Notes: generated by a model not told the origin, from the sequence alone. A stretch of DNA of 38,683 nt from a virus (IMGVR_UViG_3300031974_001102:1-38683); one strand, 5' to 3'. Positions 5,965 to 37,212 are shown, counted from the first letter of the stretch. Translations and numbers: made by a program.

Positions 5965-5982
5965 GTTGTTTAAACAAGTAGT

Positions 5983-24973: not shown

Positions 24974-25071
24974 TTCTTATACTTTTTACATTGTTTGTTT
25001 AAACAAGTAGTAATTCCCTTGTTACTATCGTACTCTAATGGTATGCCACACATAGGGCATTGTACTTTCAA
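24970..25071 (-). CDS. Zinc-ribbon microprotein, 33 aa (TTG start)
   Basis: A TTG directly after the preceding TAA opens a frame encoding (M)KVQCPMCGIPLEYDS, then TCLNKQCKKYKK. CxxC and a later CLNKQC make a compact zinc ribbon. It ends in ATGA overlapping the terminase start. The palindrome TTGTTTAAACAA (24995-25006) supplies the Cys-Leu-Asn codons. Operon fit and the Cys pattern support a real gene; the weak upstream ribosome site and rare start make it less certain. It may bind nucleic acid or assist terminase. Confidence 0.5.
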   Translation of the reverse strand: MKVQCPMCGIPLEYDSNKGITTCLNKQCKKYKK

Positions 25072-25212
25072 TTACTTTTTCTTTTTAGGTAGTTTCTTTA
25101 TCTTGCCATTTTGTGTTCTAGCAAATCTATGGGTTTTGGTTTCCATACTAGGAATAAGCGTTCCTGAATATGTTTTTCCACCCCATTTCCAACTTACTTT
25201 TCTACCTGCCAT
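25072..25212 (-). CDS. Small basic protein, 46 aa
   Basis: MAGRKVSWKWGGKTYSGTLI followed by a Lys-rich tail (IKKLPKKKK). Ribosome site AGGAG lies five bases upstream of the ATG. The SWKWGGKTYSG segment could be one SH3-like beta hairpin, and the tail suggests DNA or RNA binding. It lies between the conserved 85-aa gene and the zinc ribbon, within the late-operon head. No family is recognised. Confidence 0.6.
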   Translation of the reverse strand: MAGRKVSWKWGGKTYSGTLIPSMETKTHRFARTQNGKIKKLPKKKK

Positions 25213-25221
25213 AATACTCCT

Positions 25222-25479
25222 TTACCACATCTTGCAAGACCAATATCTTGCTGATGTTTTATCTGTAGCTGTATCACATTTGTGTCTAGCACGAAAAGAC
25301 TTTCTGGCTTCTGGGTTATCTTTTCTGATTTCCATATTTGGGTCACCAAACATAACCTTTTTTACTTTATCTCCATCTTTGACATACACTTTAAACTTTT
25401 TACGACCAAAGCCTGGTTCACCTTTACTAATGCGTGAAGGTTTATTTAAAGTTACTGTCTTTCCTTGATATAGTGCCAT
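25222..25479 (-). CDS. Conserved basic protein, 85 aa
   Basis: The C-terminal half carries the conspicuous signature VMFGDPNMEIRKDNPEARKS, then FRARHKCDTATDKTSARYWS. I recall this signature (FGDP, RKSFRARH, C...W.CKMW) from small proteins of marine phages and large DNA viruses with unknown function. The N-terminus is Lys-rich. It is translated from an ATG overlapping the stop of the tiny basic gene upstream (TAATG). The basic nature suggests nucleic-acid or capsid binding. Confidence 0.7.
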   Translation of the reverse strand: MALYQGKTVTLNKPSRISKGEPGFGRKKFKVYVKDGDKVKKVMFGDPNMEIRKDNPEARKSFRARHKCDTATDKTSARYWSCKMW

Positions 25480-25553
25480 TACATCTTCTTTGTTTTTTTC
25501 TTACCACCCTTTTTGGCGTAAGACTTCTTTTTACCATATTTACTTATTGGCAT
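25479..25553 (-). CDS. Lys-rich micro-protein, 24 aa
   Basis: First gene of the late operon: MPISKYGKKKSYAKKGGKKK, then TKKM and TAA. GGAG lies seven bases before the ATG, and the stop overlaps the next start as TAATG. Nearly half its residues are lysine. Such tiny basic proteins occur at the head of many late phage operons and may bind DNA or RNA. Real translation is supported by the ribosome site and coupling, not by homology. Confidence 0.55.
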   Translation of the reverse strand: MPISKYGKKKSYAKKGGKKKTKKM

Positions 25554-25579
25554 TACATACTCCTGTATAGCTTCTTCTT

Positions 25580-25585
25580 ACTATA
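25580..25585 (-). promoter_or_regulatory. Weak extended -10 just after the leader terminator
   Basis: On the minus strand TGT TATAGT follows the terminator hairpin at once and could fire a short leader 27 bases upstream of the first late gene. No convincing -35 is seen within the hairpin, so confidence is low. Confidence 0.25.
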
Positions 25586-25828
25586 ACACAAAACCTCACC
25601 GAAGTGAGGTTCTGTTCGTACAGTGTGTCCAATACTGTTCTACGAGTTTGTGGGCAGTTGTTTCCTCAATTAAAGGTCCTCGCACCCACTCGCTCTATGA
25701 AAGAAAATGAAATTCAATCAACCTTATCCATACATAACAATCCTGTGAACTGTCTTAGATGATTAAGCTATCTTTCTTTTCAAATTCTACCTATATCCCC
25801 ATACAGGTAACCCAGGACTTTCCTAGGT
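25586..25828 (-). ncRNA. Structured leader or small RNA upstream of the late operon
   Basis: Minus-strand transcript of about 240 nt predicted between an extended -10 promoter and the UUCG terminator. Near its 5' end it forms CUAGGA-AAG-UCCUGG (25812-25826). Next is a 9-bp hairpin with a GGGG loop (25788-25809). Both contain one G-U pair that would be an A-C mismatch if the plus strand were the RNA, which fixes orientation. A further pairing around 25651-25698 (CGAGT with ACTCG, CCC with GGG) adds structure. It could be a stable phage RNA or an antitermination-type leader controlling late genes. No known family is recognised. Confidence 0.55.
25592..25611 (-). terminator. UUCG-tetraloop intrinsic terminator ahead of the late operon
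   Basis: Minus-strand AACCTCAC-TTCG-GTGAGGTT is a perfect 8-bp stem closed by C(UUCG)G and followed by TTGTGTTATAG. It ends the structured leader and stands only 39 bases before the first late gene. Late transcription must therefore start after it or read through it. Confidence 0.8.
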
Positions 25829-25834
25829 ATATTT

Positions 25835-25865
25835 AATATATCACAGTTACAGAGTTAGGTGTAAA
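25835..25865 (-). promoter_or_regulatory. Candidate late leftward promoter
   Basis: Minus-strand TATATT (25835-25840) preceded by TGA makes an extended -10. TTTACA (25860-25865) is a -35-like box with a long 19-bp spacer. The predicted start at about 25828 falls just before the first hairpin of the leader RNA, which supports it. Confidence 0.5.
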
Positions 25866-25888
25866 AAAAATTTTTTTAGAAATACTCA

Positions 25889-25916
25889 TGGGTCTATCAG
25901 TTGCCTGGCAGACCCA
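25889..25916 (+). other. Hairpin at the start of the rightward untranslated region
   Basis: TGGGTCT and AGACCCA form a 7-bp stem around a 14-nt loop that itself contains TGCCTGGCA. It follows an A8T7 tract. No U-run follows, so it is not a plus-strand terminator. It is the first of a series of plus-strand hairpins reaching to 26.4 kb. Confidence 0.5.
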
Positions 25917-25961
25917 ATCGTATACACAATAGAAAGGGCTTAAACTATCCGAAAGGAGGAC

Positions 25962-26096
25962 ATGAATAATCCTTACCATAACTATACCATATACAGATTT
26001 TATGCAAGTAAAAATGATGGGATTTCTGTGAAGGGCGTAGGCGAAAGGAGGAAACTCCTACTATACAAAAACCCCATCAATAAATACTACCATTAA
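25962..26096 (+). CDS. Possible small gene, 44 aa, inside structured region
   Basis: ATG preceded closely by AAAGGAGGAC opens MNNPYHNYTIYRFYASKNDG and continues to KYYH and TAA. The ribosome-site spacing is short (two to three bases), and the frame is embedded in nested inverted repeats that could themselves explain the conservation of the sequence. No family is recognised. It could be a leader peptide. I keep it at low confidence. Confidence 0.3.
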   Translation: MNNPYHNYTIYRFYASKNDGISVKGVGERRKLLLYKNPINKYYH

Positions 26097-26118
26097 AACA
26101 ATAAGGTGGTATAGTTAT
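25978..26118 (+). ncRNA. Nested three-stem RNA-like structure
   Basis: The outer stem ATAACTATACCA (25978-25989) pairs perfectly with TGGTATAGTTAT (26107-26118), with a further U-G pair inside. Within it TGATGGG (26015-26021) pairs with CCCATCA (26073-26079). Inside that is GGAG-GAAA-CTCC (26047-26058), a GNRA tetraloop hairpin extended by GTA/TAC. All stems nest without conflict. No known RNA family is recognised. Confidence 0.55.
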
Positions 26119-26129
26119 ACGACAAGCAC

Positions 26130-26192
26130 GATAGATTTCAGACACTTAGAAAAAATCTATCAGATAAAAACATCACTAAGTGGACTTGTCTG
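26130..26192 (+). ncRNA. H-type pseudoknot
   Basis: Stem 1 is GATAGATTT (26130-26138) with AAATCTATC (26153-26161), 9 bp. Its loop holds CACTTAG (26143-26149), which pairs perfectly with downstream CTAAGTG (26176-26182). An alternative CAGACA (26139-26144) with TGTCTG (26187-26192) is next to it. Such crossing pairs point to functional RNA, 12 bases after the nested element. Confidence 0.5.
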
Positions 26193-26303
26193 ACCATGGT
26201 AACTAGCGTTAAAGGCTATTACTTCATATATAAAAATAAGTCATAAATAGATTTGTTATCGGTTTGGGAGGGATGACACAGGGTTAGCTGTATCTATATG
26301 TTT

Positions 26304-26378
26304 TTACTTATTTAAGTAACTTACTCTAAGAGTTTAAACAAGCACCTTAGAGGGCTGTTTTACTGTGGGGTTAACAGC
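26304..26378 (+). other. Three consecutive hairpins, one with GTTTAAAC apex
   Basis: TTACTTA/TAAGTAA (26304-26319) is a tight hairpin. CTCTAAG/CTTAGAG (26324-26352) encloses GTTTAAAC in its loop, matching the hairpin family between early genes. GCTGTT/AACAGC (26354-26378) follows. Together they make this part of the gene-free region strongly structured. Confidence 0.5.
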
Positions 26379-26406
26379 ATATTCTAAGAGGACACACATA
26401 TAATAT

Positions 26407-26540
26407 AAGGGCGTAGCCACCTTAAACCCCCCCATACTATATATAGTCCTAACACAAGCGTACACAATATATAGTACAACCACACCACACCACAACATAT
26501 AGTATCTGTCTAGTTATGGTAGTAATTTGGTAATAATTAC
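26407..26540 (+). other. Short repeats and palindromes, possible origin or regulatory DNA
   Basis: No gene is seen. The stretch holds AAGGGCGTAG (9 bases shared with 26032-26040), a C7 run (26427-26433) and the palindrome ACTATATATAGT. Two further ATATAGT copies follow to 26505, with CCACA repeats (26480-26494) and the hairpin TGGTAATAATTACCA near 26530. AT-rich palindromes plus small repeats are typical of phage origins, but no initiator gene or known motif confirms it. Confidence 0.3.
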
Positions 26541-26661
26541 CAGTAATTTAAACAAAGACAGTAAGAGGATAGACAAACATTAATAATTCAAAAATGTTTC
26601 AACCTTCCAAATTCCAGACACTCAAAAAATACAGCGAGGCTGTTTAAACACACAGGCAAAA

Positions 26662-26736
26662 AACACCACGCCAGATTTATATCAATGTACTAACCACGCC
26701 AGAGAGAGTATGTACCAACCTAGCCAAAGATAGTAC
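26662..26736. repeat. Iteron-like imperfect tandem repeats
   Basis: Two adjacent 25-bp units, 26687-26711 and 26712-26736, share GTAC.AACC..GCCA.AGA.AGTA. The core ACCACGCCAGA also occurs at 26665-26675, exactly 28 bases before its copy at 26693-26703. The repeats lie 10-100 bases upstream of two TTGACCA copies (26745 and 26767). They may bind a replication initiator or transcription factor. Confidence 0.45.
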
Positions 26737-26766
26737 AAAAAGTCTTGACCACTTTTCGAGGCAAAA

Positions 26767-26796
26767 TTGACCAAGTTTTTTTAAAAAAAATAAAGT
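26767..26796 (+). promoter_or_regulatory. Weak rightward promoter candidate
   Basis: TTGACC (26767-26772) and TAAAGT (26791-26796) are separated by 18 bases of mostly A/T. A second TTGACCA lies 22 bases upstream. The -10 matches only four of six positions, but the location at the start of the rightward genes fits an early promoter. Confidence 0.3.
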
Positions 26797-26862
26797 TTTT
26801 TTTCTACCTACCTGTAAAAGCCTATAAACACTGGATATTTCCCTAATTATTTTTTATCAAAT

Positions 26863-27045
26863 ATGACAACAAAAGTTGGCATAAAACACAGACCTAGTAA
26901 TGTTATTAGTAACACAATAGAGAAGGACTTAGACTTCTACTTAAAAAAGCCTAAGAAAGTGGTCGAGGCAAGTACAGTTGAAATCGTGTTTCAATTAAAT
27001 AGTAATACAGCGAGAGTAAGCCCAAAGAGAAAAGCCAGAGTGTAA
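26863..27045 (+). CDS. Doubtful small protein, 60 aa
   Basis: Open frame MTTKVGIKHRPSNVISNTIE to a basic C-terminus (SPKRKARV). It is Lys/Val-rich without cysteines. No ribosome site precedes the ATG (TTTTTTATCAAAT), unlike all convincing neighbours, which carry GAGG or AGGAGG. The basic tail and its position behind a promoter-like site keep it possible; it could be a small nucleic-acid-binding protein. Otherwise it is chance. Confidence 0.3.
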   Translation: MTTKVGIKHRPSNVISNTIEKDLDFYLKKPKKVVEASTVEIVFQLNSNTARVSPKRKARV

Positions 27046-27112
27046 TCTGGAAAAACTCTTCTTCTAGCGAAGATTGGTCGAGAGGCATAAAACAACACCA
27101 CTAGCGAAAAAA

Positions 27113-27142
27113 TTGACATTATTGATTTAGATTGGATATTTA
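27113..27142 (+). promoter_or_regulatory. Rightward promoter candidate ahead of the small-gene operon
   Basis: A perfect TTGACA (27113-27118) is followed after 18 bases by TATTTA (27137-27142), or after 16 by GATATT. It stands about 190 bases upstream of the first rightward zinc-finger gene and would place the 27.2-27.3 kb stem structure in the leader. Confidence 0.4.
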
Positions 27143-27187
27143 CAGAAACTATGACACTGTACGCATATTTCATTAGCCTTACTATCG

Positions 27188-27304
27188 GCTAGTTACTGTA
27201 ACTAGCTAGAAACTTACTAAGGAATTAGCCTAAACCAAATATTAGGTTAGACATTGTGAGTAGATTGGTACACGCTTACAAATAACTTTGTAGGTTTCTA
27301 GCTA
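27188..27304 (+). ncRNA. Long-stem RNA element in the leader of the rightward operon
   Basis: GCTAGTTAC-T-GTAACTAGC (27188-27206) is a perfect dyad. Overlapping its end, TAGCTAGAAACTTAC (27203-27217) pairs with GTAGGTTTCTAGCTA (27290-27304), 15 bp with one U-G. The stem encloses 72 nt that include CCTAA/TTAGG. The arrangement (long stem closing a short folded domain) is the same as in the three modules at 29.86-30.31 kb, although the sequence differs. No gene is present in 27046-27334. Confidence 0.45.
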
Positions 27305-27334
27305 TTTATAGCAGAGATAGAAAGAGGCAAAAAA

Positions 27335-27508
27335 ATGGTATGTGATAATTATGAAAATTGTGGAAACTTTGCAAGTTTCGAAAATTCTATTGAATATGAT
27401 GAAGGGCAATTTATTAAAACTTTAATTTTTTGTTCTAGTTGTTATTCAACAGAAATCAAAAAGCGTGATTTATTATCCAATAATGGCGTTCAACAATTAT
27501 CAATTTAA
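27335..27508 (+). CDS. Cys-rich small protein, 57 aa, zinc-finger-like
   Basis: MVCDNYENCGNFASFENSIE, then LIFCSSCYSTEIKKRD. Two Cys pairs (C3/C9 and C33/C36) are spaced like a small zinc ribbon. AGAGGC lies seven bases before the ATG, the same ribosome-site style as the next genes. It is the first clear gene of the rightward operon and is followed by a palindrome hairpin. Zinc binding and a regulatory role are inferred; no family is known. Confidence 0.6.
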   Translation: MVCDNYENCGNFASFENSIEYDEGQFIKTLIFCSSCYSTEIKKRDLLSNNGVQQLSI

Positions 27509-27516
27509 TTAGCTAA

Positions 27517-27542
27517 CTACACATTGTTTAAACAGTGTGTAG
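27517..27542 (+). repeat. Intergenic hairpin with TGTTTAAACA apex, copy 1
   Basis: CTACACA-T-TGTTTAAACA-G-TGTGTAG: the arms are perfectly complementary and the T/G step next to the core is a U-G wobble in plus-strand RNA. It occupies the gap between the first two rightward genes. No U-run follows, so it is not an ordinary terminator. Confidence 0.7.
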
Positions 27543-27578
27543 ATAGGTAGTTAAAACTATCAGAAAGTAAGAGGCGTA

Positions 27579-27764
27579 ATGAGAGATATCAAACACACAA
27601 AGGAAGAAATCATAGAAGAGCTTAAAAATGGTCTTAGTCTTATAGACCAAGCAGATGACATGGTTTCTTACAGCGAGTGGCAAGATGATGTTGATATACA
27701 AGATGAATTTTACGAGCTTATAAGCGAGGTAAGTTCATTCATTGAGCAACTCAAACTAAAATAA
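27579..27764 (+). CDS. Small acidic helical protein, 61 aa
   Basis: MRDIKHTKEEIIEELKNGLS, then acidic helices to IEQLKLK. It is almost certainly all-helical with heptad-like spacing, so it may dimerise. Ribosome site AGAGGCGTA lies just before the ATG. It stands alone between two palindrome hairpins. No family is recognised; early host-takeover or regulatory proteins of phages are often of this type. Confidence 0.6.
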   Translation: MRDIKHTKEEIIEELKNGLSLIDQADDMVSYSEWQDDVDIQDEFYELISEVSSFIEQLKLK

Positions 27765-27768
27765 AATA

Positions 27769-27834
27769 TCTAACTACTCATTGTTTAAACAAATAGTGAG
27801 TAGATAGATACACTTATAATTTTTATGAGTGTAT
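27769..27834 (+). repeat. Intergenic palindrome hairpin, copy 2, plus a second hairpin
   Basis: CTACTCA (27774-27780) pairs with TGAGTAG (27797-27803) around TTGTTTAAACAA (27781-27792). The stem continues outward (ATCTA/TAGAT) with one mismatch. It is followed by ATACACTTATA/TATGAGTGTAT (27808-27834), 11 bp with one U-G wobble. Both lie between the 61-aa gene and the SprT-like gene. Confidence 0.65.
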
Positions 27835-27867
27835 TATTAAATAACACAAAGAATAGAGAGGCAAATA

Positions 27868-28572
27868 ATGGAAACTAAAGAAAAAGTTACTACACAAGAA
27901 GAAATCAAATTCTTCGAAGGTACAAGAGAAGAGTGGCTTAACAAAGTTGCAGACTTTATCTATGATGAAATCAAGAAAGAGTTCGTATGCGAGGTTGAGC
28001 GTGACAAAATCAAACTATCTGTCGGCTTTATGCCAAAAGGTAATGCGAAAGCTATTGGTATCTGTCACTACGAAAGTCACAGCGAGGGCGATTACAGAGA
28101 AATCTTTATATGCCCAACTCGTTCTGGTACTTCTCTAGCCAACAGTATTGAAACAGCGCAGATTGTCGCCCATGAGGTCACTCATGCAATACTTCCAGTA
28201 GGTACAGGTCATAATCGTAGATTTTCTAAGATTATTATCGACTACTTAGGCGCAGAGGGTATACCTACAGCGACAGTTAGTGGCGCTAAGTTCACTTTAC
28301 TTGTACAAGACTTCATCAAAGAGTTAGGCTTACTTCCTCATTATGCTATCAAGCAACAAGAGGGTAAGGGTTCAACTACAGTTGCAGTTCGTTGTACAGG
28401 TGCAGAGGCTTGTATCGGTGCTAGTGACAAATCAATCGCGCAGGGTTGGGGTTTAATCAGCAGAGTATCTATGGCTGTGTACAAGAAAGTTGGCAACAAC
28501 TTTAGGTGCATGGCTTGTGGTAGCGAAACTGTTGTAGAATTACCAATCAACCTACGCAAAGATTATCAATAA
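27868..28572 (+). CDS. SprT-like zinc metalloprotein
   Basis: 234 aa. HEVTH (residues 102-106) within IVAHEVTHAILPVG is the HExxH zinc and catalytic motif, with H115 of GTGHNRRF as a possible third ligand. The C-terminal part carries C176, C182, C214 and C217 (RCMACGSE), forming a zinc ribbon like that of SprT-family proteins. SprT-like proteases act on DNA-bound or crosslinked proteins, so a phage role in freeing DNA or cutting host proteins is plausible but inferred. The ribosome site is GAGAGGCAAATA. The gene is alone between palindrome hairpins. Confidence 0.65.
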   Translation: METKEKVTTQEEIKFFEGTREEWLNKVADFIYDEIKKEFVCEVERDKIKLSVGFMPKGNAKAIGICHYESHSEGDYREIFICPTRSGTSLANSIETAQIVAHEVTHAILPVGTGHNRRFSKIIIDYLGAEGIPTATVSGAKFTLLVQDFIKELGLLPHYAIKQQEGKGSTTVAVRCTGAEACIGASDKSIAQGWGLISRVSMAVYKKVGNNFRCMACGSETVVELPINLRKDYQ

Positions 28573-28575
28573 ATA

Positions 28576-28636
28576 ATCGTAGAGCGCTTGTTTAAACAAC
28601 GAGCGTTCAACGATATTTATTAGGCAATAATAAATA
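28576..28636 (+). repeat. Intergenic palindrome hairpin, copy 3, plus AT hairpin
   Basis: ATCGT (28576-28580) pairs with ACGAT (28610-28614), and CGCT with AGCG, around TTGTTTAAACAA (28588-28599). Next, TATTTATT (28614-28621) pairs with AATAAATA (28629-28636). As at copy 2, a palindrome hairpin is followed by a second hairpin just ahead of the next ribosome site. Confidence 0.6.
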
Positions 28637-28660
28637 CAAACAGAATAGAGGAGGCAACTA

Positions 28661-29086
28661 ATGAAAGAGCAGTATGTAATACAGGCTAAAGATGTATTTA
28701 GTTTATATACAGATGTCAGTATTGTTACAGCGCAAAGCAACGAGGAGGCGTTACTTCAGTGGCGTTCACTCAATGGCAAAACTGGTATCAATGTAGATGT
28801 TAGATATATCGAAGAGAGTATTAAAGTTCAGCGCTTAGGTTTACTAAGTGACAACTACTGGAGAGATATCCGACTACTCAACAACTCTGTAACTATGAAA
28901 CACAATATTGGTGTTACTCAACAAGAAGATTGTGGCAACATCAAAGACAAACACTTCTTAACCTTAGATGAGTTAAGAAGAGGGTTAAGTAGAGCAGAGT
29001 TCAGAGATTTTATGGGTATGGACTTATCGCCAGAGGACAAAGCATACTTAAATAAGGAATTAGATTTATCTAATCCACCTTTCTAA
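28661..29086 (+). CDS. Hypothetical protein, 141 aa
   Basis: MKEQYVIQAKDVFSLYTDVS: the first ~60 residues form alternating beta strands with a helix (SNEEALLQWRSLNGKTG). This is a small alpha/beta unit also hinted at in the 51-, 56- and 56-aa proteins further right. The C-terminal part (LTLDELRRGLSRAEFRDFMG) is helical. GGAGGC lies seven bases before the ATG. No enzyme motif is seen and no family is recognised. Confidence 0.6.
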   Translation: MKEQYVIQAKDVFSLYTDVSIVTAQSNEEALLQWRSLNGKTGINVDVRYIEESIKVQRLGLLSDNYWRDIRLLNNSVTMKHNIGVTQQEDCGNIKDKHFLTLDELRRGLSRAEFRDFMGMDLSPEDKAYLNKELDLSNPPF

Positions 29087-29100
29087 CTGTAGTTAGCTAG

Positions 29101-29124
29101 ACCTCGTTGTTTAAACAGCGAGGT
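29101..29124 (+). repeat. Intergenic palindrome hairpin, copy 4
   Basis: ACCTCG-T-TGTTTAAACA-G-CGAGGT: the perfect arms are again different in sequence from the other copies, with the same T/G wobble next to the core. TTTAT follows, so weak termination is possible here. An upstream dyad CTAACT/AGTTAG sits at 29084-29097. Confidence 0.7.
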
Positions 29125-29173
29125 TTATGGTAATTACAATCAGTGATTATCAGCAAAATATTATGGAGGCATA

Positions 29174-29374
29174 ATGAATACATTAACAATAGAGAAAAAA
29201 GATTATAGAAATGTAGTCTGTGATTATTGTAAAAATGATAATGAAGAAACTTATTATCTTTTTACTGTGGAGGCTTATGACATTTACAGAGAATTATATA
29301 TCTGTGAATTAGATAAGGAAGAGGCTATTGATTATATAAAAATTAATCATGGCGTAAAAGTAATAGGAGGATAA
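29174..29374 (+). CDS. Small CxxC protein, 66 aa
   Basis: MNTLTIEKKDYRNVVCDYCK followed by acidic, Tyr-rich sequence and a C-terminal ELDKEEAIDYIKINHGVKV. C16 and C19 (CDYC) and a later Cys (YICELD) suggest a zinc knuckle. The ribosome site is GGAGGCATA. The next gene follows within five bases, so the two are co-translated. Function is unknown. Confidence 0.6.
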   Translation: MNTLTIEKKDYRNVVCDYCKNDNEETYYLFTVEAYDIYRELYICELDKEEAIDYIKINHGVKVIGG

Positions 29375-29379
29375 AAAAA

Positions 29380-29598
29380 ATGGCTACAAAAAATGATGAG
29401 GGTAAATTAATTATCCCAGAATATGTGTTCGAGGCAATCTCGAATGTCAGAGATAGTGGCATAATCAACATGGCTAGTTTCAGAGAGTTACTGGAATTAG
29501 TTCCTAGTGATGTTGCTACATGGCTAAAAGATAACAAAGAAATCTACATGGAAGGTTTCTTCTATGGTTTTGTACCAGACACAAAGGTAAATAAGTAA
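29380..29598 (+). CDS. DUF5049-like small protein, 72 aa
   Basis: The segment FEAISNVRDSGIINMASFRE, then VATWLKDNKEIYMEGFFYGF matches my memory of the small phage family DUF5049. There the pattern is a helix with (I/V)R.SG..NM, then a helix and a Tyr-rich end. The family is common in phage accessory regions and has no known function. GGAGGATA serves as ribosome site. It is followed by two hairpins. Confidence 0.55.
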   Translation: MATKNDEGKLIIPEYVFEAISNVRDSGIINMASFRELLELVPSDVATWLKDNKEIYMEGFFYGFVPDTKVNK

Positions 29599-29622
29599 TA
29601 GGGAAATCCCCTTATAGTGATT

Positions 29623-29648
29623 GGGATAGTTGTTGCCTCGACTATCCC
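29623..29648 (+). terminator. Hairpin after the 72-aa gene (terminator-like)
   Basis: GGGATAGT (29623-29630) pairs perfectly with ACTATCCC (29641-29648) around a 10-nt loop. A small GGG/CCC hairpin lies just upstream, and CCTTCACTG follows rather than a U-run. It may be a weak terminator or a stabilising structure. Next to it CTGTTTAAACAG (29654-29665) runs into the ribosome site of the next gene. Confidence 0.45.
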
Positions 29649-29673
29649 CTTCACTGTTTAAACAGGAGGACTA

Positions 29674-29838
29674 ATGAAAGTAAAGTGTGAGATGTGTAAC
29701 AAAAAAATAAATAGAATTAGTCACAATAATTGTATCGTTACTTTAGATACTGGTACTTATGATGTCAGATACTTTTGTAAAGAGAATTACAATGACATAG
29801 AAAACTTTTGTTATATATCTTATTTATACGACAAATAA
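29674..29838 (+). CDS. Small Cys-rich protein, 54 aa
   Basis: MKVKCEMCNKKINRISHNNC then DVRYFCKENYNDIENFCYIS. C5/C8 form a CxxC knuckle, with further Cys residues at 20, 35 and 46, so a zinc-binding fold is likely. Ribosome site AGGAGGA begins directly at the end of the CTGTTTAAACAG palindrome, so access of ribosomes would change if the palindrome is bound or paired. It is followed by the gene-free RNA block. Confidence 0.6.
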   Translation: MKVKCEMCNKKINRISHNNCIVTLDTGTYDVRYFCKENYNDIENFCYISYLYDK

Positions 29839-29843
29839 AGTTA

Positions 29844-29866
29844 CTACTTGTTTAAACAATGAGTAG
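29844..29866 (+). repeat. Palindrome hairpin, copy 6, leading into the RNA block
   Basis: CTACT (29844-29848) pairs with AGTAG (29862-29866) around the TTGTTTAAACAA core (29848-29859). The right arm is also the beginning of the closing stem of RNA module 1, so the two structures would compete or be alternative states. Confidence 0.5.
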
Positions 29867-29994
29867 GTAGCTTGTAACACATAAGAGAGAATAGATGACA
29901 ACTAAGCATAAGCGTATCTCTTAGTTCGGTAGTAGGAAGTTGGAAACGCTACCAATGAGCAATTAAAAACAACTTGTGTGTTACAAGCTATCTA
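29864..29994 (+). ncRNA. Tandem RNA module 1
   Basis: TAGGTAGCTTGTAACACA (29864-29881) pairs with TGTGTTACAAGCTATCTA (29977-29994). TAAG/CTTG continues the stem to 22 bp including U-G pairs. The loop of about 90 nt has two hairpins: TAAGAGA/TCTCTTA (29882-29922) and GGTAG/CTACC (29927-29953). The whole lies in a gene-free stretch. It is a plus-strand RNA candidate without a recognised family. Confidence 0.6.
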
Positions 29995-30041
29995 TTAGTA
30001 GGACTAGGTTCTCAATGCCCTGTTTATCCTAATACCGAAAG
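29995..30041 (+). other. Spacer between RNA modules 1 and 2
   Basis: TTAG(TA)GGA (29995-30003) can pair with TCCTAA, with a two-base bulge, giving a hairpin with a pyrimidine-rich loop. No gene or promoter is seen. Confidence 0.35.
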
Positions 30042-30229: not shown

Positions 30230-30230
30230 G

Positions 30231-30307: not shown

Positions 30308-30424
30308 TGTGGGTGTACGCATAAGGTTGGAAACTCTAACTTAGAATTAGAGATATGAAATACCATATAAACAATGTAATTCCAGTTTGGTACGCATAAG
30401 CCCATGAGATAGTTGTTTAAACAG
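30308..30424 (+). other. 3' part of the RNA block with hairpins and a GTACGCATAAG repeat
   Basis: The direct repeat GTACGCATAAG occurs near 30315 and 30391. TGGG...CCCA can close the stretch. Hairpins CTCTAA/TTAGAG and ATATG/CATAT lie between, and TGTTTAAACA occurs at 30414-30423. No gene is seen before 30509. Confidence 0.4.
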
Positions 30425-30478: not shown

Positions 30479-30508
30479 TTGTACAACACAAATAGAAAGA
30501 GGTAAATT

Positions 30509-30712
30509 ATGAGCGAAGAGATAACATCAGAGCAAAAAACAGAAATCATTAAGCAATTATGGGAATGCCTTAGCAGAGGTTATACCTACGAAGAGGCACA
30601 AATTCATATGAGAGCTTTTAAAGAAGGCAAAACTACAGTAAAGACAGTTGTAGTTGTAGATGAAGATGACATAGCATTTAAAGATTATTTAAAAAGGAGG
30701 AATAATGGCTAA
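30509..30712 (+). CDS. Small charged protein, 67 aa
   Basis: MSEEITSEQKTEIIKQLWEC, then GYTYEEAQIHMRAFKEGKTT and a Val-rich strand (VKTVVVVDEDD). It ends in KDYLKRRNNG. It is helix-helix-strand with a basic tail, possibly a small DNA-binding or antirepressor-like protein. The ribosome site is AGAGGTAAATT. It overlaps the next gene by eight bases. No family is recognised. Confidence 0.55.
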   Translation: MSEEITSEQKTEIIKQLWECLSRGYTYEEAQIHMRAFKEGKTTVKTVVVVDEDDIAFKDYLKRRNNG

Positions 30713-31166
30713 GGGAAATTGTTACGAGGCAAACTTTAACGAGTTTACAAGCAGAGTAAATAACAAACCAAAGTACAACAATACAAACAAAGTATTAGTA
30801 CATGCTATGCGAGAGTGGGCAGGTAAGGGTTCAGAGATGTGGGGTGGACACGCCTTCATATTAGATAAGGACACAAACTGGGTTGATGATTACTCAAACA
30901 ACAAGCACTTGTCAGTTGCTAAAGATGAGATATTCGAGAAGTGGAATATCCAAACAGAAGGTAAGTTTATGTACTTTGAATATGATTATGTTCAAGCCAT
31001 AGACAAAGCAATAGAAACTGGACACTATGGTTGTTGGGATATTTTATTCGAGCAGTGGCAAAATGAAAATCATATAGAGTATATGAAAGATTATTTTATG
31101 CCTAAGTTTCAGCCAAGATTACACACAATGTACGAAGAGTACGATAAGAAGAAGGGGGTTGTTTAA
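30705..31166 (+). CDS. Hypothetical protein, 153 aa, possible papain-like fold
   Basis: NCYEANFN near the N-terminus (C6), LVHAMREWAG (H33), WGGHAFILD (H49) and NWVDDYS (D61/D62) give a Cys, His and Asp order. It is reminiscent of small papain/transglutaminase-like phage and bacterial proteins (pattern CYxN...GHxW...D). Catalysis is not established. The C-terminal half is helical and aromatic-rich. The ribosome site is AAAGGAGGAATA, and the stop codon lies inside the palindrome at 31159-31170. Confidence 0.45.
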   Translation: MAKGNCYEANFNEFTSRVNNKPKYNNTNKVLVHAMREWAGKGSEMWGGHAFILDKDTNWVDDYSNNKHLSVAKDEIFEKWNIQTEGKFMYFEYDYVQAIDKAIETGHYGCWDILFEQWQNENHIEYMKDYFMPKFQPRLHTMYEEYDKKKGVV

Positions 31167-31169
31167 ACA

Positions 31170-31764: not shown

Positions 31765-31874
31765 TGACAGATAGTTTATGTTTCGTATGTCACGAAATAC
31801 CAAATCAATTTATAATCTACGACCAAGTTTTAGTTTGTTGCGTAGATTGTGCAAATAAGAAAGGACTTGTTTAA
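31764..31874 (+). CDS. Zinc-ribbon microprotein, 36 aa
   Basis: MTDSLCFVCHEIPNQFIIYD then QVLVCCVDCANKKGLV. Two CxxC knuckles (C6/C9 and C26/C29) make a minimal zinc ribbon like the 33-aa one at 24970. It begins in TAATG with the preceding stop. Its own stop is supplied by the palindrome at 31867-31878, reading GTT TAA. Confidence 0.55.
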   Translation: MTDSLCFVCHEIPNQFIIYDQVLVCCVDCANKKGLV

Positions 31875-31877
31875 ACA

Positions 31878-32275: not shown

Positions 32276-32421
32276 TGGTTAGTAATTGTGACCATACACC
32301 TAGTGCAGTTATGGAAATGCCTAACGCATATATCAATGGCGACAGAGATGAAGATGTTGTGTATTGCGAAGTTTGTCATAAGACATTCGAGGTAAGTGAT
32401 TACTTTGATGAGTATTCGTAA
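32275..32421 (+). CDS. Small CxxC protein, 48 aa
   Basis: MVSNCDHTPSAVMEMPNAYI then YCEVCHKTFEVSDYFDEYS. C5, H7 and CEVCH form a probable zinc knuckle. Ribosome site GAGGATAAACGA is upstream, with a TAATG overlap on the left. It is the third or fourth zinc-like microprotein in this cluster, suggesting an expanded set of nucleic-acid or protein binding factors. Confidence 0.5.
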   Translation: MVSNCDHTPSAVMEMPNAYINGDRDEDVVYCEVCHKTFEVSDYFDEYS

Positions 32422-32568
32422 ATGAATTATGGGTGGTACTGGGTAATCCTCGTATTACTCTTAACAGGGCTACTAACAAGATTTATAAATAGGAGGTGGA
32501 ATGATGAAGGAACTAATTTTACTAAGAGCAGAACTTCTAAAGTGGGAAGAAGAACTAATTGGTTTTAA
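32422..32568 (+). CDS. Possible membrane micro-protein, 48 aa
   Basis: Directly after a stop, MNYGWYWVILVLLLTGLLTR forms one transmembrane helix (about 4-19), followed by a basic tail (FINRRWNDEGTNF, SKVGRRTNWF). It overlaps the next gene by 68 bases in another frame, and no clear ribosome site precedes it, so it is uncertain. If made it would be an inner-membrane protein with a cytosolic basic tail. Confidence 0.35.
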   Translation: MNYGWYWVILVLLLTGLLTRFINRRWNDEGTNFTKSRTSKVGRRTNWF

Positions 32569-32701
32569 AAGTATAACACTTGGACAATCACATATTATGA
32601 ATAGTGAAATAAAAGAACTTGAAATTGAATTAGGTGCTGTTAGAACTTTTATTGCAAAAGTGGATAAAGCAATAAAGAACAAGAGAACACAGGCTGTTTA
32701 A
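32501..32701 (+). CDS. Coiled-coil small protein, 66 aa
   Basis: MMKELILLRAELLKWEEELI, then more helix to VDKAIKNKRTQAV. Leu/Ile heptads point to a dimeric coiled coil. Ribosome site AGGAGGTGGA stands before a double ATG; the second ATG (32504) is as likely. Its stop codon is embedded in the strong palindrome hairpin (32685-32714). Confidence 0.6.
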   Translation: MMKELILLRAELLKWEEELIGFKSITLGQSHIMNSEIKELEIELGAVRTFIAKVDKAIKNKRTQAV

Positions 32702-32714
32702 ACAGCTTGTGTTT
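32685..32714 (+). terminator. Palindrome hairpin that looks like an intrinsic terminator
   Basis: AACACA-G-GCTGTTTAAACAGC-T-TGTGTT is an almost perfect dyad (one G-U) followed by TTCT. It carries the TGTTTAAACA core in its centre and the stop codon of the upstream gene. Of all copies it is the one best fitting transcription termination. A 16-bp variant, TGTTTAAATTTAAACA, follows at 32729-32744. Confidence 0.65.
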
Positions 32715-32728
32715 TCTAAGTAAATACT

Positions 32729-32744
32729 TGTTTAAATTTAAACA
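32729..32744. repeat. Expanded palindrome variant
   Basis: TGTTTAAATTTAAACA is a perfect 16-bp palindrome made of the half-sites TGTTTAAA and TTTAAACA set apart. It sits 25 bases after the terminator copy and just before a gene lacking a ribosome site. Confidence 0.6.
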
Positions 32745-32753
32745 TCTATTAAC

Positions 32754-32924
32754 ATGGGTAGTATGAAATACTTAGTAAGAAGTCTTTCAATCTTTGATGC
32801 AAGTGTGATGACATGGGAATTTAATTCACATGATGAGGCACTTCAAAAAGTCAGAGAATTAAAAGACACAGGTGCTAACTATTTTATAGTATCTATCGAA
32901 CAGATAGAAACTGTAAGCAGTTAA
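32754..32924 (+). CDS. Small alpha/beta protein, 56 aa
   Basis: MGSMKYLVRSLSIFDASVMT then WEFNSHDEALQKVRELKDTG and a final strand. It matches the strand-helix-strand plan of the 51- and 56-aa proteins at 31170 and 31878. No ribosome site is seen before either ATG (M1 or M4), so it may be leaderless or coupled. It stands alone between a terminator-like hairpin and the next ribosome site. Confidence 0.5.
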   Translation: MGSMKYLVRSLSIFDASVMTWEFNSHDEALQKVRELKDTGANYFIVSIEQIETVSS

Positions 32925-32954
32925 ACAAAACACAATAAATATAAAGGAGAAGAG

Positions 32955-33158
32955 ATGACCGAAGGTCTATTTAGTGAACCAAAAAATCTTAAAAACTGGG
33001 CTATCAAACTTGCAAATGCTTGTGGTGGTCAAAAGGTTGAGAAATCTATTTTCCTTACAAAGACAAATCCACAACGCATAAGAGAGTTGTTAGATGAATT
33101 TGTTGAGGAACATAACAAACAAACACTTGCAGTAATGCAAGAGCTAGAGGAGGAATAA
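32955..33158 (+). CDS. Small helical protein, 67 aa
   Basis: MTEGLFSEPKNLKNWAIKLA then FLTKTNPQRIRELLDEFVEE. Helical and charged with a single Cys. AAAGGAGAAGAG is the ribosome site. It is coupled to the next gene by TAATG. No family is recognised; the N-terminal half could be a small DNA-binding helix bundle. Confidence 0.55.
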   Translation: MTEGLFSEPKNLKNWAIKLANACGGQKVEKSIFLTKTNPQRIRELLDEFVEEHNKQTLAVMQELEEE

Positions 33159-33451
33159 TGGTAAAAGCTAACGCAGATAAAAATGCAAGAGGTTTTCATA
33201 ACCTACCAATAGGTACAAAGATATCATTTTTATATCCATACAATCCAATTACAAAGCAACATGATGAAGATGATGTTTTGTTTTTAGAAATAGATGACAT
33301 GGAGAAAGCGCAGTTTAAACAAATAACTTTATACAAAGGTATGAATACCAAATTAATTACTTTTATAAAGATAGGCAGTACGCAACAAAGTGCGTATGAA
33401 ACCACTGTAGGCGTTAGCAAAGTACAAGAGAGGATAGAAATTGCCGAGTAA
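33158..33451 (+). CDS. Beta-rich small protein, 97 aa
   Basis: MVKANADKNARGFHNLPIGT then KISFLYPYNPITKQHDEDDV. A short basic N-terminus is followed by alternating strands (FLEIDDMEKAQFKQITLYKG) and a C-terminal helix. GTTTAAAC at 33313-33320 is read as part of QFKQ. It overlaps the next, TTG-started gene by 11 bases. Function is unknown. Confidence 0.55.
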   Translation: MVKANADKNARGFHNLPIGTKISFLYPYNPITKQHDEDDVLFLEIDDMEKAQFKQITLYKGMNTKLITFIKIGSTQQSAYETTVGVSKVQERIEIAE

Positions 33452-33602
33452 AGAAGAAACATGGCATTTAACTTTAACAATAGAAGTTAAACCAAAAAAT
33501 TTATTAAGAGATAAAGAACATATACCAAGTTTTTGGACAGGCTACATAAGTAATGTGGCAGGTCACAAAGTTATATCATCACAATATAAGGAGGTGAAAT
33601 AA
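33441..33602 (+). CDS. Small protein, 53 aa, TTG start
   Basis: A TTG seven bases after GAGG starts (M)PSKEETWHLTLTIEVKPKN, and the frame continues to HKVISSQYKEVK, with TAA overlapping the next ATG (TAATG). The overlap at both ends and good ribosome site support a real gene despite the rare start. Mostly beta, unidentified. Confidence 0.5.
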   Translation: MPSKEETWHLTLTIEVKPKNLLRDKEHIPSFWTGYISNVAGHKVISSQYKEVK

Positions 33603-33796
33603 TGTCAGACACTTTGGGTATGCTTAGAGAGGCGCAAAGCCTTTATGAGAGAAGTAAAGCAAACTTAGATGTAACAATCGCAAATAGAAAGAAACTTATA
33701 AGTGCTTGTTTAAACAATGGGCATAGCGTTATAGAAATAGCAAAAGTTTTAAACCTTAGTAGACAAAGGGTTTACAAAATAATGGAGAAGGAATAA
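33602..33796 (+). CDS. Small helix-turn-helix protein, 64 aa
   Basis: The C-terminal half NGHSVIEIAKVLNLSRQRVY is a resolvase/sigma-type HTH (residues about 40-62, with recognition helix SRQRVYKIMEK). The N-terminal helix (REAQSLYERSKANLDVTIAN) could dimerise. The ribosome site is AGGAGGTGAAATA. The palindrome at 33706-33717 lies in the gene as Cys-Leu-Asn-Asn. It is the only obvious DNA-binding regulator in the window and so a candidate reader of the palindromes, which is a guess. Confidence 0.6.
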   Translation: MSDTLGMLREAQSLYERSKANLDVTIANRKKLISACLNNGHSVIEIAKVLNLSRQRVYKIMEKE

Positions 33797-33798
33797 AT

Positions 33799-34701
33799 AT
33801 GGATAAAGAAACACATAAGAAACTAATAACAAACTTTCCGAAGAGCGCTGTTAAACAAGCGCCAAAGGGTAAGTTTGGTAACTATGTACCTCATCACTTA
33901 TATACAAAGAGATTAGTAGATACCATAGCAGGTAAATACAACTTCTCTTTTGATGAGATACGAGATAAAGATAATTCTATTGTAGGCGCTAAGTGTGTAC
34001 TAGAAATAGAAGGCTTAGGCAGAGTAGAAGAAGTCGGAGATGTTGATGTTCATGCAATTAATAGAGGCATTACAGAGAGCGAGATATTAAAACTTGCTGT
34101 CAGTGATGGCATTAAAAGATGTTGCATGAGATTTGGTATCGGCTTAGAACTGTGGACAGGAGATGTTAGCGAAGAAGAACATTACGCAGGAGAGTATAAA
34201 GAAGTCGTTACTCAATTAGAAAACTCTTCCCAACAGGTCGTAAAAGAAACTAAAAAAGATGACTATAAAGTCAGAATTAATAACGAACTTGAACACGCAG
34301 AGAAGGACAATCTAAAAAGAAACTCATATAAGCTAGAGGCATGGAACTTGTTTAAACAAACAAACGAAACAGATATGTCTAAGTGGTCAGACTTTGAGTT
34401 AGATAAGTTCTTAGATACATTCTACGAAGTTCAAGCTAAATATAAAGCAGAAGAGGAGAACATTCCCTCTACAGAATTAGTAGAAGAAGTCTTTGGCGAG
34501 GTCAAAGATGTTGGTAGATATTGCCCTCAATGTAATTCAATGGAATGGATAGAGGACAATAGAGAGAAGAAAGCAAGTGATAGTAAGTTTGAGAATATTC
34601 CAGACTTTACTTGTAGCAACTATGGTCAATCCAATGGCTGTGGTTGGGGAGGCTATATCGACAGCAAAGGCGATAGAGCAGTACCAACACAATGGCTATA
34701 G
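33799..34701 (+). CDS. Rad52-like single-strand annealing protein
   Basis: 300 aa. The core YVPHHLYTKRLVDTIAGKYN, a DxVGAKCVLEIEGLGR strand pair and SDGIKRCCMRFGIGLELW match the Rad52/22-like annealing fold of phage recombinases. About 130-230 is a charged linker. The C-terminus carries a zinc ribbon (RYCPQCNSMEWIED and TCSNYGQSNGCGWGGY). It would anneal complementary strands in replication and recombination. No RecE-like exonuclease partner is adjacent; the nuclease-like gene at 35656 could be the partner. AAGGAATAAAT is the ribosome site. Confidence 0.72.
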   Translation: MDKETHKKLITNFPKSAVKQAPKGKFGNYVPHHLYTKRLVDTIAGKYNFSFDEIRDKDNSIVGAKCVLEIEGLGRVEEVGDVDVHAINRGITESEILKLAVSDGIKRCCMRFGIGLELWTGDVSEEEHYAGEYKEVVTQLENSSQQVVKETKKDDYKVRINNELEHAEKDNLKRNSYKLEAWNLFKQTNETDMSKWSDFELDKFLDTFYEVQAKYKAEEENIPSTELVEEVFGEVKDVGRYCPQCNSMEWIEDNREKKASDSKFENIPDFTCSNYGQSNGCGWGGYIDSKGDRAVPTQWL

Positions 34702-35009
34702 AGCCAATCAATATTAATCTGGATAAACTCAAAGCAAAACTTAAAGAGCGTTATCCAGATTATGATTTTGATAAACCAGTACAATTAGATAGGAAGTGTA
34801 AGTTAGTTCCAGAAGGAAGGTCTTGCCCAAAAAAGCAAGACCGACCTATTGTAATTGACAACAACAAGAACGAAATGTGTGTCTACTTGTTTAAACACCT
34901 AGATGAGAAGTCGCAAATTAAGAGCGACAGAAGATGTTATGCAATAGTCACCACCGAAGAAGAGCGTACAAAGTACGAGCAAGGAACATGGTATGAAGGT
35001 AATAGATAA
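34692..35009 (+). CDS. Hypothetical protein, 105 aa
   Basis: MAIEPININLDKLKAKLKER then YPDYDFDKPVQLDRKCKLVP. Basic and Cys-containing (C36, C45, C62, C81), perhaps a zinc fold. It overlaps the annealing-protein gene by 10 bases and the next gene by 17, so it is made with them. The palindrome core at 34888-34897 reads as LFK. It may assist recombination, as suggested only by neighbourhood. Confidence 0.5.
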   Translation: MAIEPININLDKLKAKLKERYPDYDFDKPVQLDRKCKLVPEGRSCPKKQDRPIVIDNNKNEMCVYLFKHLDEKSQIKSDRRCYAIVTTEEERTKYEQGTWYEGNR

Positions 35010-35235
35010 GATATATGACTTTGAGAATGGCGACAAATATGTTGTTGAAACAAAGGAATGTTTTCACTGTGGCAAGACAGGAACAGTAGAGATATTTACG
35101 CAAGAGATGTTTTGGCTACATCAGGGCAAACATATTCAAGAGGCTGTTCAATCCTTAAATAAAGATTTAAGAGAGCAGATGATTACAGGCACACATCCTC
35201 AATGTTGGATAGAGATGTTTGGAGAAGAGGAATAA
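34993..35235 (+). CDS. Conserved CxxC protein, 80 aa, actinophage-type
   Basis: ECFHCGKTGTVEIFTQEMFW, then GKHIQEAVQSLNKDLREQMI and TGTHPQCWIEMF. The order CxHC-G...G...IQ.A...(S/N)...EQ.I.G.HP.CW is one I recall as a small conserved protein in many actinobacterial phages, of unknown function. A zinc site from CxxC and the His-Cys end is likely. It starts inside the preceding gene with AAGGA upstream, and its stop overlaps the lysozyme start (TAATG). Confidence 0.6.
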   Translation: MKVIDKIYDFENGDKYVVETKECFHCGKTGTVEIFTQEMFWLHQGKHIQEAVQSLNKDLREQMITGTHPQCWIEMFGEEE

Positions 35236-35666
35236 TGTATGGAATTGTACTTAGTTCTTTAATGCTATGTGCAATACCAAACAGCGAAACATTAAATAAT
35301 ATAAGGGCTTATGCCACTTGTTTAAACAATAACAAAAAGATTAATCATGTTATTGAATGGCAAGATGACATAAGCCTTTATTTTGAAGATGAAGATGTTA
35401 GAGAGGCACTGTTAATTGTTTATTGTGAGAGTTCTGGTAATCCTAACGCTGTCAATATAAACAAAGACAATTCTCGTGATGTTGGTCTGTTTCAGTTTTG
35501 GGATAACACATGGCAGTGGTTGGAAGATAAGTTAGACTTTACAGGCAATCGTAAGACACCAAGCCTCAACATCAAAGTAGCAAGTTGGTTGTACTACAAA
35601 AGTGGTTCACACCATTGGAACAGCAGTAGAAACTGTTGGGAGGAAAATATTATTTATGAGCAGTAA
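35235..35666 (+). CDS. Secreted lysozyme / transglycosylase-like protein
   Basis: 143 aa from the ATG at 35235 (MYGIVLSSLMLCAIPNSETL), chosen for GGAGAAGAGGAATA and TAATG coupling. A short hydrophobic N-terminus resembles a signal or anchor. The domain is SLT/RPF-like: VYCESSGNPNAVN carries the expected catalytic Glu (E65), and GLFQFWDNTWQW and KVASWLYYKSGSHHW follow the family order. It would cut peptidoglycan glycan chains. It is expressed with early genes, away from the holin and amidase, so it may act at entry, on superinfection or as host-wall remodelling. The palindrome at 35318-35329 encodes CLNN. Confidence 0.65.
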   Translation: MYGIVLSSLMLCAIPNSETLNNIRAYATCLNNNKKINHVIEWQDDISLYFEDEDVREALLIVYCESSGNPNAVNINKDNSRDVGLFQFWDNTWQWLEDKLDFTGNRKTPSLNIKVASWLYYKSGSHHWNSSRNCWEENIIYEQ

Positions 35667-36051
35667 TAAGAAATTTGATTTGGACTTAGCTAAAGGTATA
35701 CAAATGGAAGAAAAACTAGCCGAGTTCTTTGAAGGTAAGTTAGTAGAAGTAAAGAGTGAGAGATATATCTGGGAGAAAACAGGTAACCACTTTTTAGAAT
35801 ACGAAAGCTATGGCAAACCAAGTGGCATAGCTGTTACCGAAAGCGAGTATTGGGCATTGATGTTAGTAAAAGAAATTAATGGCGTTGATGTTCCAGTGAT
35901 GACTTATATTGTACCAGTTGAAACTATGAAAGAGTTAGGTAGAAAATATATTCATACCAAGACAGAAGGTGGAGATGACAATATGAGTAAAGGTGTCTTA
36001 GTGCCTATTAAAGAAATAGCACTAGCTTGTTTAAACAATGACAGGGAATGA
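35656..36051 (+). CDS. Possible PD-(D/E)XK nuclease-like protein
   Basis: 131 aa from MSSNKKFDLDLAKGIQMEEK. The order KGIQMEEK, LVEVKSERY, TGNHFLEYESYGKPSGIAVT and EYWALML is shared by small phage PD-(D/E)XK-like nucleases I recall (E..., EVK, TGN.FIEYE.KGKPSGI..T.ADYW). EVK (31-33) would be the (D/E)xK part; the preceding acid is not certain. It overlaps the lysozyme gene by 11 bases, with GGGAGG 13-16 bases upstream. The last codons lie in the palindrome 36027-36038 and overlap the end of the convergent phosphoesterase gene. Confidence 0.55.
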   Translation: MSSNKKFDLDLAKGIQMEEKLAEFFEGKLVEVKSERYIWEKTGNHFLEYESYGKPSGIAVTESEYWALMLVKEINGVDVPVMTYIVPVETMKELGRKYIHTKTEGGDDNMSKGVLVPIKEIALACLNNDRE

Positions 36052-37212
36052 AGCACCCCTGTCATTAACAAGTAATGTTAATGCGCCAGGATGTGACCAC
36101 AAGCCTGTTCGTTGTGTAAAGTCTAAACTCTTATCTAAACTAGGACATTGAAACCATTGTCTATCGCCCTGTTGTTTCGCACGAAAATGATGATAGTGCG
36201 CAGTTACAAGTATGTGTGCATTACCTGTTGGTAAGAAACCATACATCTGACCTTTCCACCAACTTTCAATCTTCGCCTCTGGATTACCACTACCATTGGT
36301 CATATGACCATGTGTGAATGCCATTTCTTTTCCTTTGACCCCAAGCGTTAAGTGATAACCTTCTGGCACAATGACATCAACTTTTTTATATCTCTCTTTA
36401 TTTGCATTAAAGATTTCTTTCATAATCTCTAAGTGCATAGTGTCTGAATTATCTAGCCTACTTGTTAATACTTGACCTTTAGAACTTCTAGTCATCTCAC
36501 CATGATTTCCTGGAACGCCTGTCAAAATTATTTTGTCTGCTAATGGCAGGAATGTTTCTACAGTTTTAAATATCATAGCTCTAGCTAGGCTGTATTGTTC
36601 CATAAGATTTAAAGAAACATTGTGTGGTTGGCTGTCGTAGAAGAACTTTGTACAGTTTTCTGTGAGGTCACCCATTCCTACTAGATATACTTCATCAATT
36701 TTGTAGCCTATCTTCCTGTAGTTTTTTAATAATTGAACTGCATCTTGTAATGCTATGTCGTATCTCTTGATAGTATTCTCAACTCCATAGTCATCCTTGC
36801 CCAACTGCCAATCACTCATAAAAAAGAAGAAGGCTGTATCGCCACCGAATAATTTATGCTTAGCTAATGGTGGCTTCTTTGCTGCTTGTTTAAACAACTC
36901 TTTATAATACTTATCACGATTAGCAGACTTCCTTCTTACACTTCCTTTAAATGCGTAAAAGGTTTCTACTATACCACCTTTTAATTGTGCGTTCCAAGAA
37001 GATACTTTTAATATCCCATCAATCTCGTATAACTTAGGGTCAAATCCCCAACTACGAAGTATCTCATCTGTCTTACTCTCATAGTTTGGGTCTGTTCCAA
37101 CATGAGTTATTTCACCTGTGCCTGTTGCATGGTCAAAATCAACAGTGGGTTTCCAACCTGCTTTAAAATAGTTATTACTATTCTCTACAGGAATAGATTT
37201 CTTCTTAGACAT
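36031..37212 (-). CDS. Calcineurin-like metallophosphoesterase
   Basis: 393 aa. Motifs of the family are in order: FFFMSDWQLG (D134, with Q136 where DxH is usual), VGMGDLTE, GVPGNHGEMTR, AFTHGHMT and VTAHYHHFRAK. Two metals and a phosphodiester or phosphomonoester bond are the expected chemistry; the substrate (cyclic nucleotide, DNA end or other) is unknown. From memory, SDWQLG-type phosphoesterases are common in actinophages. The N-terminal ~120 residues are a separate domain. AAAGGAGGGTAC precedes the ATG. Its stop codon is inside the palindrome at 36027-36038. Confidence 0.75.
   Translation of the reverse strand: MSKKKSIPVENSNNYFKAGWKPTVDFDHATGTGEITHVGTDPNYESKTDEILRSWGFDPKLYEIDGILKVSSWNAQLKGGIVETFYAFKGSVRRKSANRDKYYKELFKQAAKKPPLAKHKLFGGDTAFFFFMSDWQLGKDDYGVENTIKRYDIALQDAVQLLKNYRKIGYKIDEVYLVGMGDLTENCTKFFYDSQPHNVSLNLMEQYSLARAMIFKTVETFLPLADKIILTGVPGNHGEMTRSSKGQVLTSRLDNSDTMHLEIMKEIFNANKERYKKVDVIVPEGYHLTLGVKGKEMAFTHGHMTNGSGNPEAKIESWWKGQMYGFLPTGNAHILVTAHYHHFRAKQQGDRQWFQCPSLDKSLDFTQRTGLWSHPGALTLLVNDRGASFPVIV

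Follow-up and report, generated by a model that had tools for sequence, protein, structure and literature searches.

Dispersed palindromes in a marine phage genome and a SprT-like zinc-ribbon protein as their candidate partner

Dispersed palindromes bound by a single kind of protein are familiar from ParB-parS systems, in which the binder is a partition protein. Among phages, the stoperators of cluster A (L5, TipsytheTRex) are present as more than 20 short, dispersed copies, many of them in short intergenic gaps, and are bound by one phage protein; each is 13 bp long, asymmetric and orientated with transcription, and the binder is the two-domain HTH repressor of temperate phages (PMC9283540). 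The SAS/ESAS motifs and intergenic repeats of actinophage clusters K, EF, O, EG, EC and EI, the functions of which are unknown, are likewise short motifs repeated near gene starts, and some of them are inverted repeats (PMC7302621).

The window, that is, the whole stretch of 38,683 bases that was analysed, is a linear IMG/VR fragment of a marine phage with terminase, capsid and holin/amidase genes, in which small rightward genes form a block from about 26 to 36 kb. Unlike a stoperator, the palindrome repeated in it is perfect and also occurs within genes, its candidate binder is a zinc ribbon, and the related sites of sequence GTTTACAC follow an orientation in certain phages but not in others; the scanned window genes showed no integrase. 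The sequences differ from SAS/ESAS as well, for which no trans-acting partner has been proposed and which overlap the ribosome site, whereas few window sites are start-associated. As for ParB-parS, the window site differs from the parS consensus, and a ParB that follows the sites was not seen. In the literature searched, outside which most subscription papers lay, no report was found that links GTTTAAAC or GTTTACAC to SprT-like proteins; the motif and the SprT link are thus unreported within that literature, while repeated actinophage motifs themselves are already known (PMC7302621).

Distribution and conservation of the palindromes

By exact count the window holds 24 copies of GTTTAAAC, 20 of TGTTTAAACA and 13 of TTGTTTAAACAA, where an order-3 Markov model predicts 2.1 for the first and 0.39 for the second; right of 24.9 kb the corresponding figures are 21 against 0.78 and 18 against 0.15. 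GTTTAAAC is the top over-represented octamer among the palindromes of the window. A preliminary description of this DNA had reported an excess of the octamer, twenty full palindromes and a cluster from 24996 to 36896, all of which stand, the excess also after Markov correction, and the strong selection that it proposed is supported by the size of the excess together with octamer conservation against drifting flanks. Its account of clustering to the right is likewise sound, although it placed four of the 24 copies left of 24.9 kb where there are three (5968, 11944 and 20060), the fourth lying at 24997. The sites and the features around them are as follows, with strand where one applies.

5967..5976, TGTTTAAACA site, left arm, 5' of gene 5316-5762
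11943..11952, TGTTTAAACA site within gene 11699-12619
20060..20067, GTTTAAAC lacking complete flanks, within gene 14184-20600; altered in 36 of 47 relatives and probably there by chance
24996..25005, TGTTTAAACA site upstream of the terminase gene
26332..26339, GTTTAAAC with partial flanks, control region
26641..26650, TGTTTAAACA site, control region
27506..27553, + strand, intergenic hairpin with site 27525-27534 as its tip; arms co-vary among relatives
27774..27803, + strand, hairpin with site 27782-27791 as its tip, 77 bp upstream of the SprT-like gene
27868..28572, + strand, SprT-like zincin (HEVTH) with C-terminal zinc ribbon, 234 aa; candidate site binder
28360..28569, + strand, zinc-ribbon part of the SprT-like protein, the part tracking sites in other phages
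28576..28614, + strand, bulged hairpin with site 28589-28598 as its tip, directly 3' of the SprT-like gene; arms co-vary
29089..29137, + strand, 20-pair hairpin with site 29108-29117 as its tip; 99.1% of cells paired, 25 double changes, 11 sequences
29655..29664, TGTTTAAACA site preceding the SD and start of gene 29674
29849..29858, TGTTTAAACA site behind gene 29674-29838
30414..30423, TGTTTAAACA site, intergenic
31160..31169, TGTTTAAACA site giving the TAA stop of 30705-31166, with the ATG of 31170 immediately next
31868..31877, TGTTTAAACA site with an SD on one side and the ATG of 31878 on the other
32682..32717, + strand, hairpin with site 32695-32704 as its tip; the site gives the TAA stop of 32501-32701
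33313..33320, GTTTAAAC with no full flank in gene 33158-33451; kept in 3 of 11, probably chance
33707..33716, TGTTTAAACA site within the HTH gene; kept in 12 of 12
34349..34358, TGTTTAAACA site within the SSAP-like gene; kept in 12 of 12
34888..34897, TGTTTAAACA site within gene 34692-35009; kept in 12 of 12
35319..35328, TGTTTAAACA site within gene 35202-35666; kept in 16 of 16
36028..36037, TGTTTAAACA site at convergent gene ends; kept in 14 of 14
36887..36896, TGTTTAAACA site within the metallophosphoesterase gene; intact in 51 relatives, changed in 29
37684..37691, GTTTAAAC in the amidase gene; kept in 10 of 19 relatives

Few of the 21 sites in the right part directly precede a start, and most lie at gene ends, in intergenic gaps or in gene interiors, such that the start association suggested earlier applies to a handful of sites and fails for the rest. 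A GC-rich inverted repeat at the convergent gene ends (36037-36070), which adjoins a site, is likely a bidirectional terminator.

Relatives, collected by terminase and by metallophosphoesterase, fall into two classes, site-rich with 14-34 copies and site-less with 0-2. The alignment of related phages proposed in the preliminary description shows the octamer kept at orthologous right-arm positions: site-rich relatives hold it at the same spots, genic as well as intergenic, although the flanks drift. Between 27.5 and 36.0 kb it is intact at orthologous positions in every aligning relative with two exceptions, namely site 29109, where GTTTAAGC occurs once, and 33313, a site with poor flanks, in a count that leaves out seven right-arm sites without any aligning relative. 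The site-less relatives have their 0-2 copies in 30-42 kb and a metallophosphoesterase about 70% identical; because phages this closely related have so few copies, and because the octamer in the metallophosphoesterase gene is changed in 29 relatives, having sites or lacking them looks to be a trait of the phage as a whole. No replacement palindrome stood out in the site-less relatives, where TTAGCTAA is mostly coding sequence, and a search for the host through genome contigs matched four mixed MAG bins, at loci without sites. A leftward 85-aa protein (25222-25479) is 71-95% identical even in site-less relatives, which is unusually conserved for its size.

The SprT-like protein and its zinc ribbon

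SPRTN and SprT proteases act in DNA-protein crosslink repair, and we know of no sequence-specific sites for SPRTN. SPRTN itself is a DNA-dependent protease (PMC5127644). The window protein carries HEVTH and was modelled (pLDDT 86.7) as a zincin close to SPRTN and selecase, the best structure matches being 6mdw (Z 8.5) and selecase (8.3). It therefore resembles SPRTN/SprT (PDB 6mdw, 6mdx) in having a zincin fold with HExxH, and the present phage family differs from them in that the ribbon persists without the protease. The window protein falls short of the Pfam SprT-like cut-off (16.5 bits against 25.6), which its Venkman relative clears with 38.3. The ribbon model is of moderate confidence only (pLDDT 75), and a PDB sequence search with the ribbon profile returned nothing significant. 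Most family members have in common a KKQ[ST]TR motif and ribbon Arg residues; in the window protein the KKQSTR motif is weakened to GKGSTT. Relatives annotated as 'SprT-like protease' or 'transcription elongation protein SprT' are found in considerably more than 100 sequenced phages, with no role assigned.

The SprT-like protein is the sole protein found in all 15 site-rich records and in none of the five site-poor ones, its absence from site-less relatives having been re-checked by profile; the fifteen include G026, G027 and G028, a second phage group that has almost nothing else in common with the window. When loci were scanned by the protein, the octamer was enriched at 57 of 59. When records were instead scanned by close pairs of sites, the protein not being used, the family was present, among the matches listed, in 30 of 40 site-rich records, some of them closely related to each other, and in 3 of 37 poor controls. 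The ten site-rich records without the family among these matches are fragments of 4-15 kb, and the three family-bearing 'poor' controls are site-enriched in the full record (14-16, 12 and 4 sites, G104 only weakly with 4). In 13 of the 30 family-bearing rich records among the matches listed, the match is ribbon-sized only, in an ORF of 60-111 aa, and HExxH is absent from several other family members in site-rich records. Since 13 records keep the ribbon alone and others lack the protease motif, it is the ribbon, not the protease, that tracks the sites as judged from these sequences. The 64-aa protein previously put forward as a binder, the one HTH protein seen, is not supported, because its gene occurs in the site-less relatives G001 and G014. 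A 56-aa protein (32754-32924) is limited to site-rich records of the window's own family (11/15 against 0/5 site-poor), with no match in G026-type phages.

Cultured phages, plasmids and the one-base variant

Venkman, a Methylophilales phage (PMC8163748), has 34 copies of GTTTAAAC. The octamer is present 17 times in Dinoroseobacter phage R5C and 16 times in Pseudanabaena phage Pan1, neither of which contains the reversed control; both share the protein family, as do Venkman and a Magnetospira plasmid with about 18 site copies. The Arthrobacter and Microbacterium relatives have no GTTTAAAC and carry 16-33 copies of GTTTACAC, which is different by one base; among actinophages without the family, Omar and Immanuel3 have no GTTTACAC and Racecar has 4 in 194 kb. 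This comparison is a lead rather than a test, because controls are few and the motif letter was picked after looking.

Neither motif is present in Dismas, which encodes the protein with a ribbon that has lost KKQ[ST]TR and the Arg residues; a P. viciae plasmid has no sites and a changed KKQ[ST]TR. Both cases, site-less with an altered ribbon, would fit a link between ribbon and site. The ep3 and Sphingomonas plasmid members keep a KQxTR ribbon, yet have 3-4 sites only. The link is an association, and gene modules pass between phages as blocks. If it is true, SprT-like phage proteins acquire a concrete DNA target and one class of dispersed phage repeats acquires a protein that goes with it, and the question is open to test in cultured systems (Arthrobacter/Microbacterium phages, Dinoroseobacter R5C, Venkman).

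Candidate roles of the sites

We put at roughly even chances the general proposal that dispersed GTTTAMAC sites are read by a minimal zinc ribbon of some 45 aa, which in many cases is joined to a SprT-like protease, active or decayed, that site and ribbon changed together in lineages, and that the two form a widespread regulatory or genome-organising system of phages and plasmids. For the window, the balance is similarly even on whether the palindromes are dispersed double-stranded DNA sites for the SprT-like protein, engaged through its ribbon in a stoperator-like control of transcription, for which we infer binding, recognition and function from sequence patterns. Among the roles proposed earlier, that of operator or stoperator is the best supported, with binding as its putative part. 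The site cluster encloses the SprT-like gene, which has a site 77 bp upstream and stands close to the beginning of the rightward block, the timing of which is probably early. The protein would recognise double-stranded sites through its C-terminal zinc ribbon and, bound at many spaced sites, would most likely stop or slow RNA polymerase, damping transcription of the block and limiting its own synthesis; at points of halted transcription, the hairpins that transcripts form around some intergenic sites could shield or set the RNA ends. The outer flank preferences of the sites are symmetric and differ by lineage, and therefore argue for a DNA dyad. A site stands within 120 bp upstream of the family's gene in 16 of 23 records, against a position-only expectation of 3.0 that lies below the true background because sites favour intergenic gaps. 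Genes with such a site make up 12/26 in the right arm of the window (46%), and, in two actinophages, 12/69 in Kaylissa and 8/71 in Emotion (11-17%); since upstream sites are this common in general, the excess that bears on autoregulation is smaller than the position-only figure suggests.

Several intergenic sites are the tips of hairpins whose arms vary between relatives yet remain complementary. At site 29109, 99.1% of cells are paired, with 25 double changes against 7.2 in shuffles, for a structure defined from the same sequences used to test it; in slid controls pairing drops to 36-55%. Hairpins with compensatory changes are capped by about 24 of the 214 clusters of sites, where 7.8 would be expected by chance, such that the RNA-structure role raised in the preliminary description holds for a minority and fails for most sites. 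Arms are absent at most genic sites, a pooled flank-pairing test over all sites gave little covariation, the signal being limited to a subset, and matches to a hairpin pattern scan came, as far as checked, from the same clade only. At the 24 hairpin sites, every departure of the wobble type reads as G.U on the transcribed (+) strand (20 cases) and never as A.C, a pattern that points to RNA. Hairpins thus need additional explanation if the sites are read as DNA, and the strongest rival for this subset is RNA recognition: the zinc-ribbon protein would bind GUUUAAAC in transcripts, displayed on the tips of intergenic hairpins and otherwise in single-stranded RNA, and would control translation, processing or stability. 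The compensatory changes and the one-sided wobbles favour this, as do the sites that adjoin start and stop codons and the sense orientation of GTTTACAC in 54 of 66 cases across three Arthrobacter phages. That orientation bias, however, is present in some phages only, GTTTACAC often being on the opposite strand (15/33 in Honk, 6/22 in Zeta1847); the hairpins occur at few of the clusters, and a perfect palindromic core with symmetric outer preferences is unneeded for RNA reading. Overall we consider RNA binding unlikely.

The sites might also serve to label self DNA or to arrange the replicon for compaction, segregation or packaging, the ribbon protein then being a nucleoid-like binder. Spacing among the 18 full right-arm sites is more regular than random placement gives (gap CV 0.47 against 0.95, P 0.0005), and even spacing beyond chance recurs in Pan1, the Magnetospira plasmid, Kaylissa and R5C, though not in every replicon; in R5C, Pan1 and the Magnetospira plasmid sites are scattered across the whole replicon. 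That sites occur on a plasmid, and that the gene lies beside parA on a Sphingomonas plasmid, agrees with such a role. Against it, one block contains the bulk of the sites in each of the window, G003, G033 and Venkman, and structural genes there are nearly site-free; in our view the role is quite unlikely. Another phage or host factor might bind the sites and be acted on, for example cleaved, by the SprT-like protein, as ImmA/IrrE-type proteases act on repressors. HExxH is often intact and the family has a SPRTN-like fold, yet the protease motif is missing or the ribbon stands alone in many site-rich records and no other protein co-occurs across groups, and we rate this very unlikely. Hardly credible is a use of the sites as gene-shuffling linkers for an annealing recombinase, with a stop (GTTTAA) and then a start (ACAATG) making genes swappable: this stop-then-start form is seen at many junctions of the window and of G003, and the phage encodes an SSAP-like protein, but the genic sites are perfectly kept, the site-less G001 has the same SSAP-like protein, and both the SprT/ribbon link and the plasmid would be left unexplained.

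Further observations concern individual records. On sphingomonad and Pseudomonas plasmids (L401, L403) the SprT-like gene adjoins parA or a KfrB-domain gene, and sites are few or none. Arthrobacter phage Emotion (L272) has seven copies of GTTTCACGTGAAAC, which looks like a canonical ParB parS site, and Escherichia phage ep3 (L271), in which a ParB is annotated, has inverted repeats AACAATnATTGTT in 6-7 copies. In Microbacterium phage Zeta1847 (L269), TACACGCGTGTA occurs six times in promoter-like surroundings, some copies overlapping GTTTACAC sites. Two phage contigs of about 46% GC (L306, L342) carry one site per 240 bases, 39 in 9.3 kb in L306, and the terminase DNA of L342 is similar to that of Streptomyces phages.
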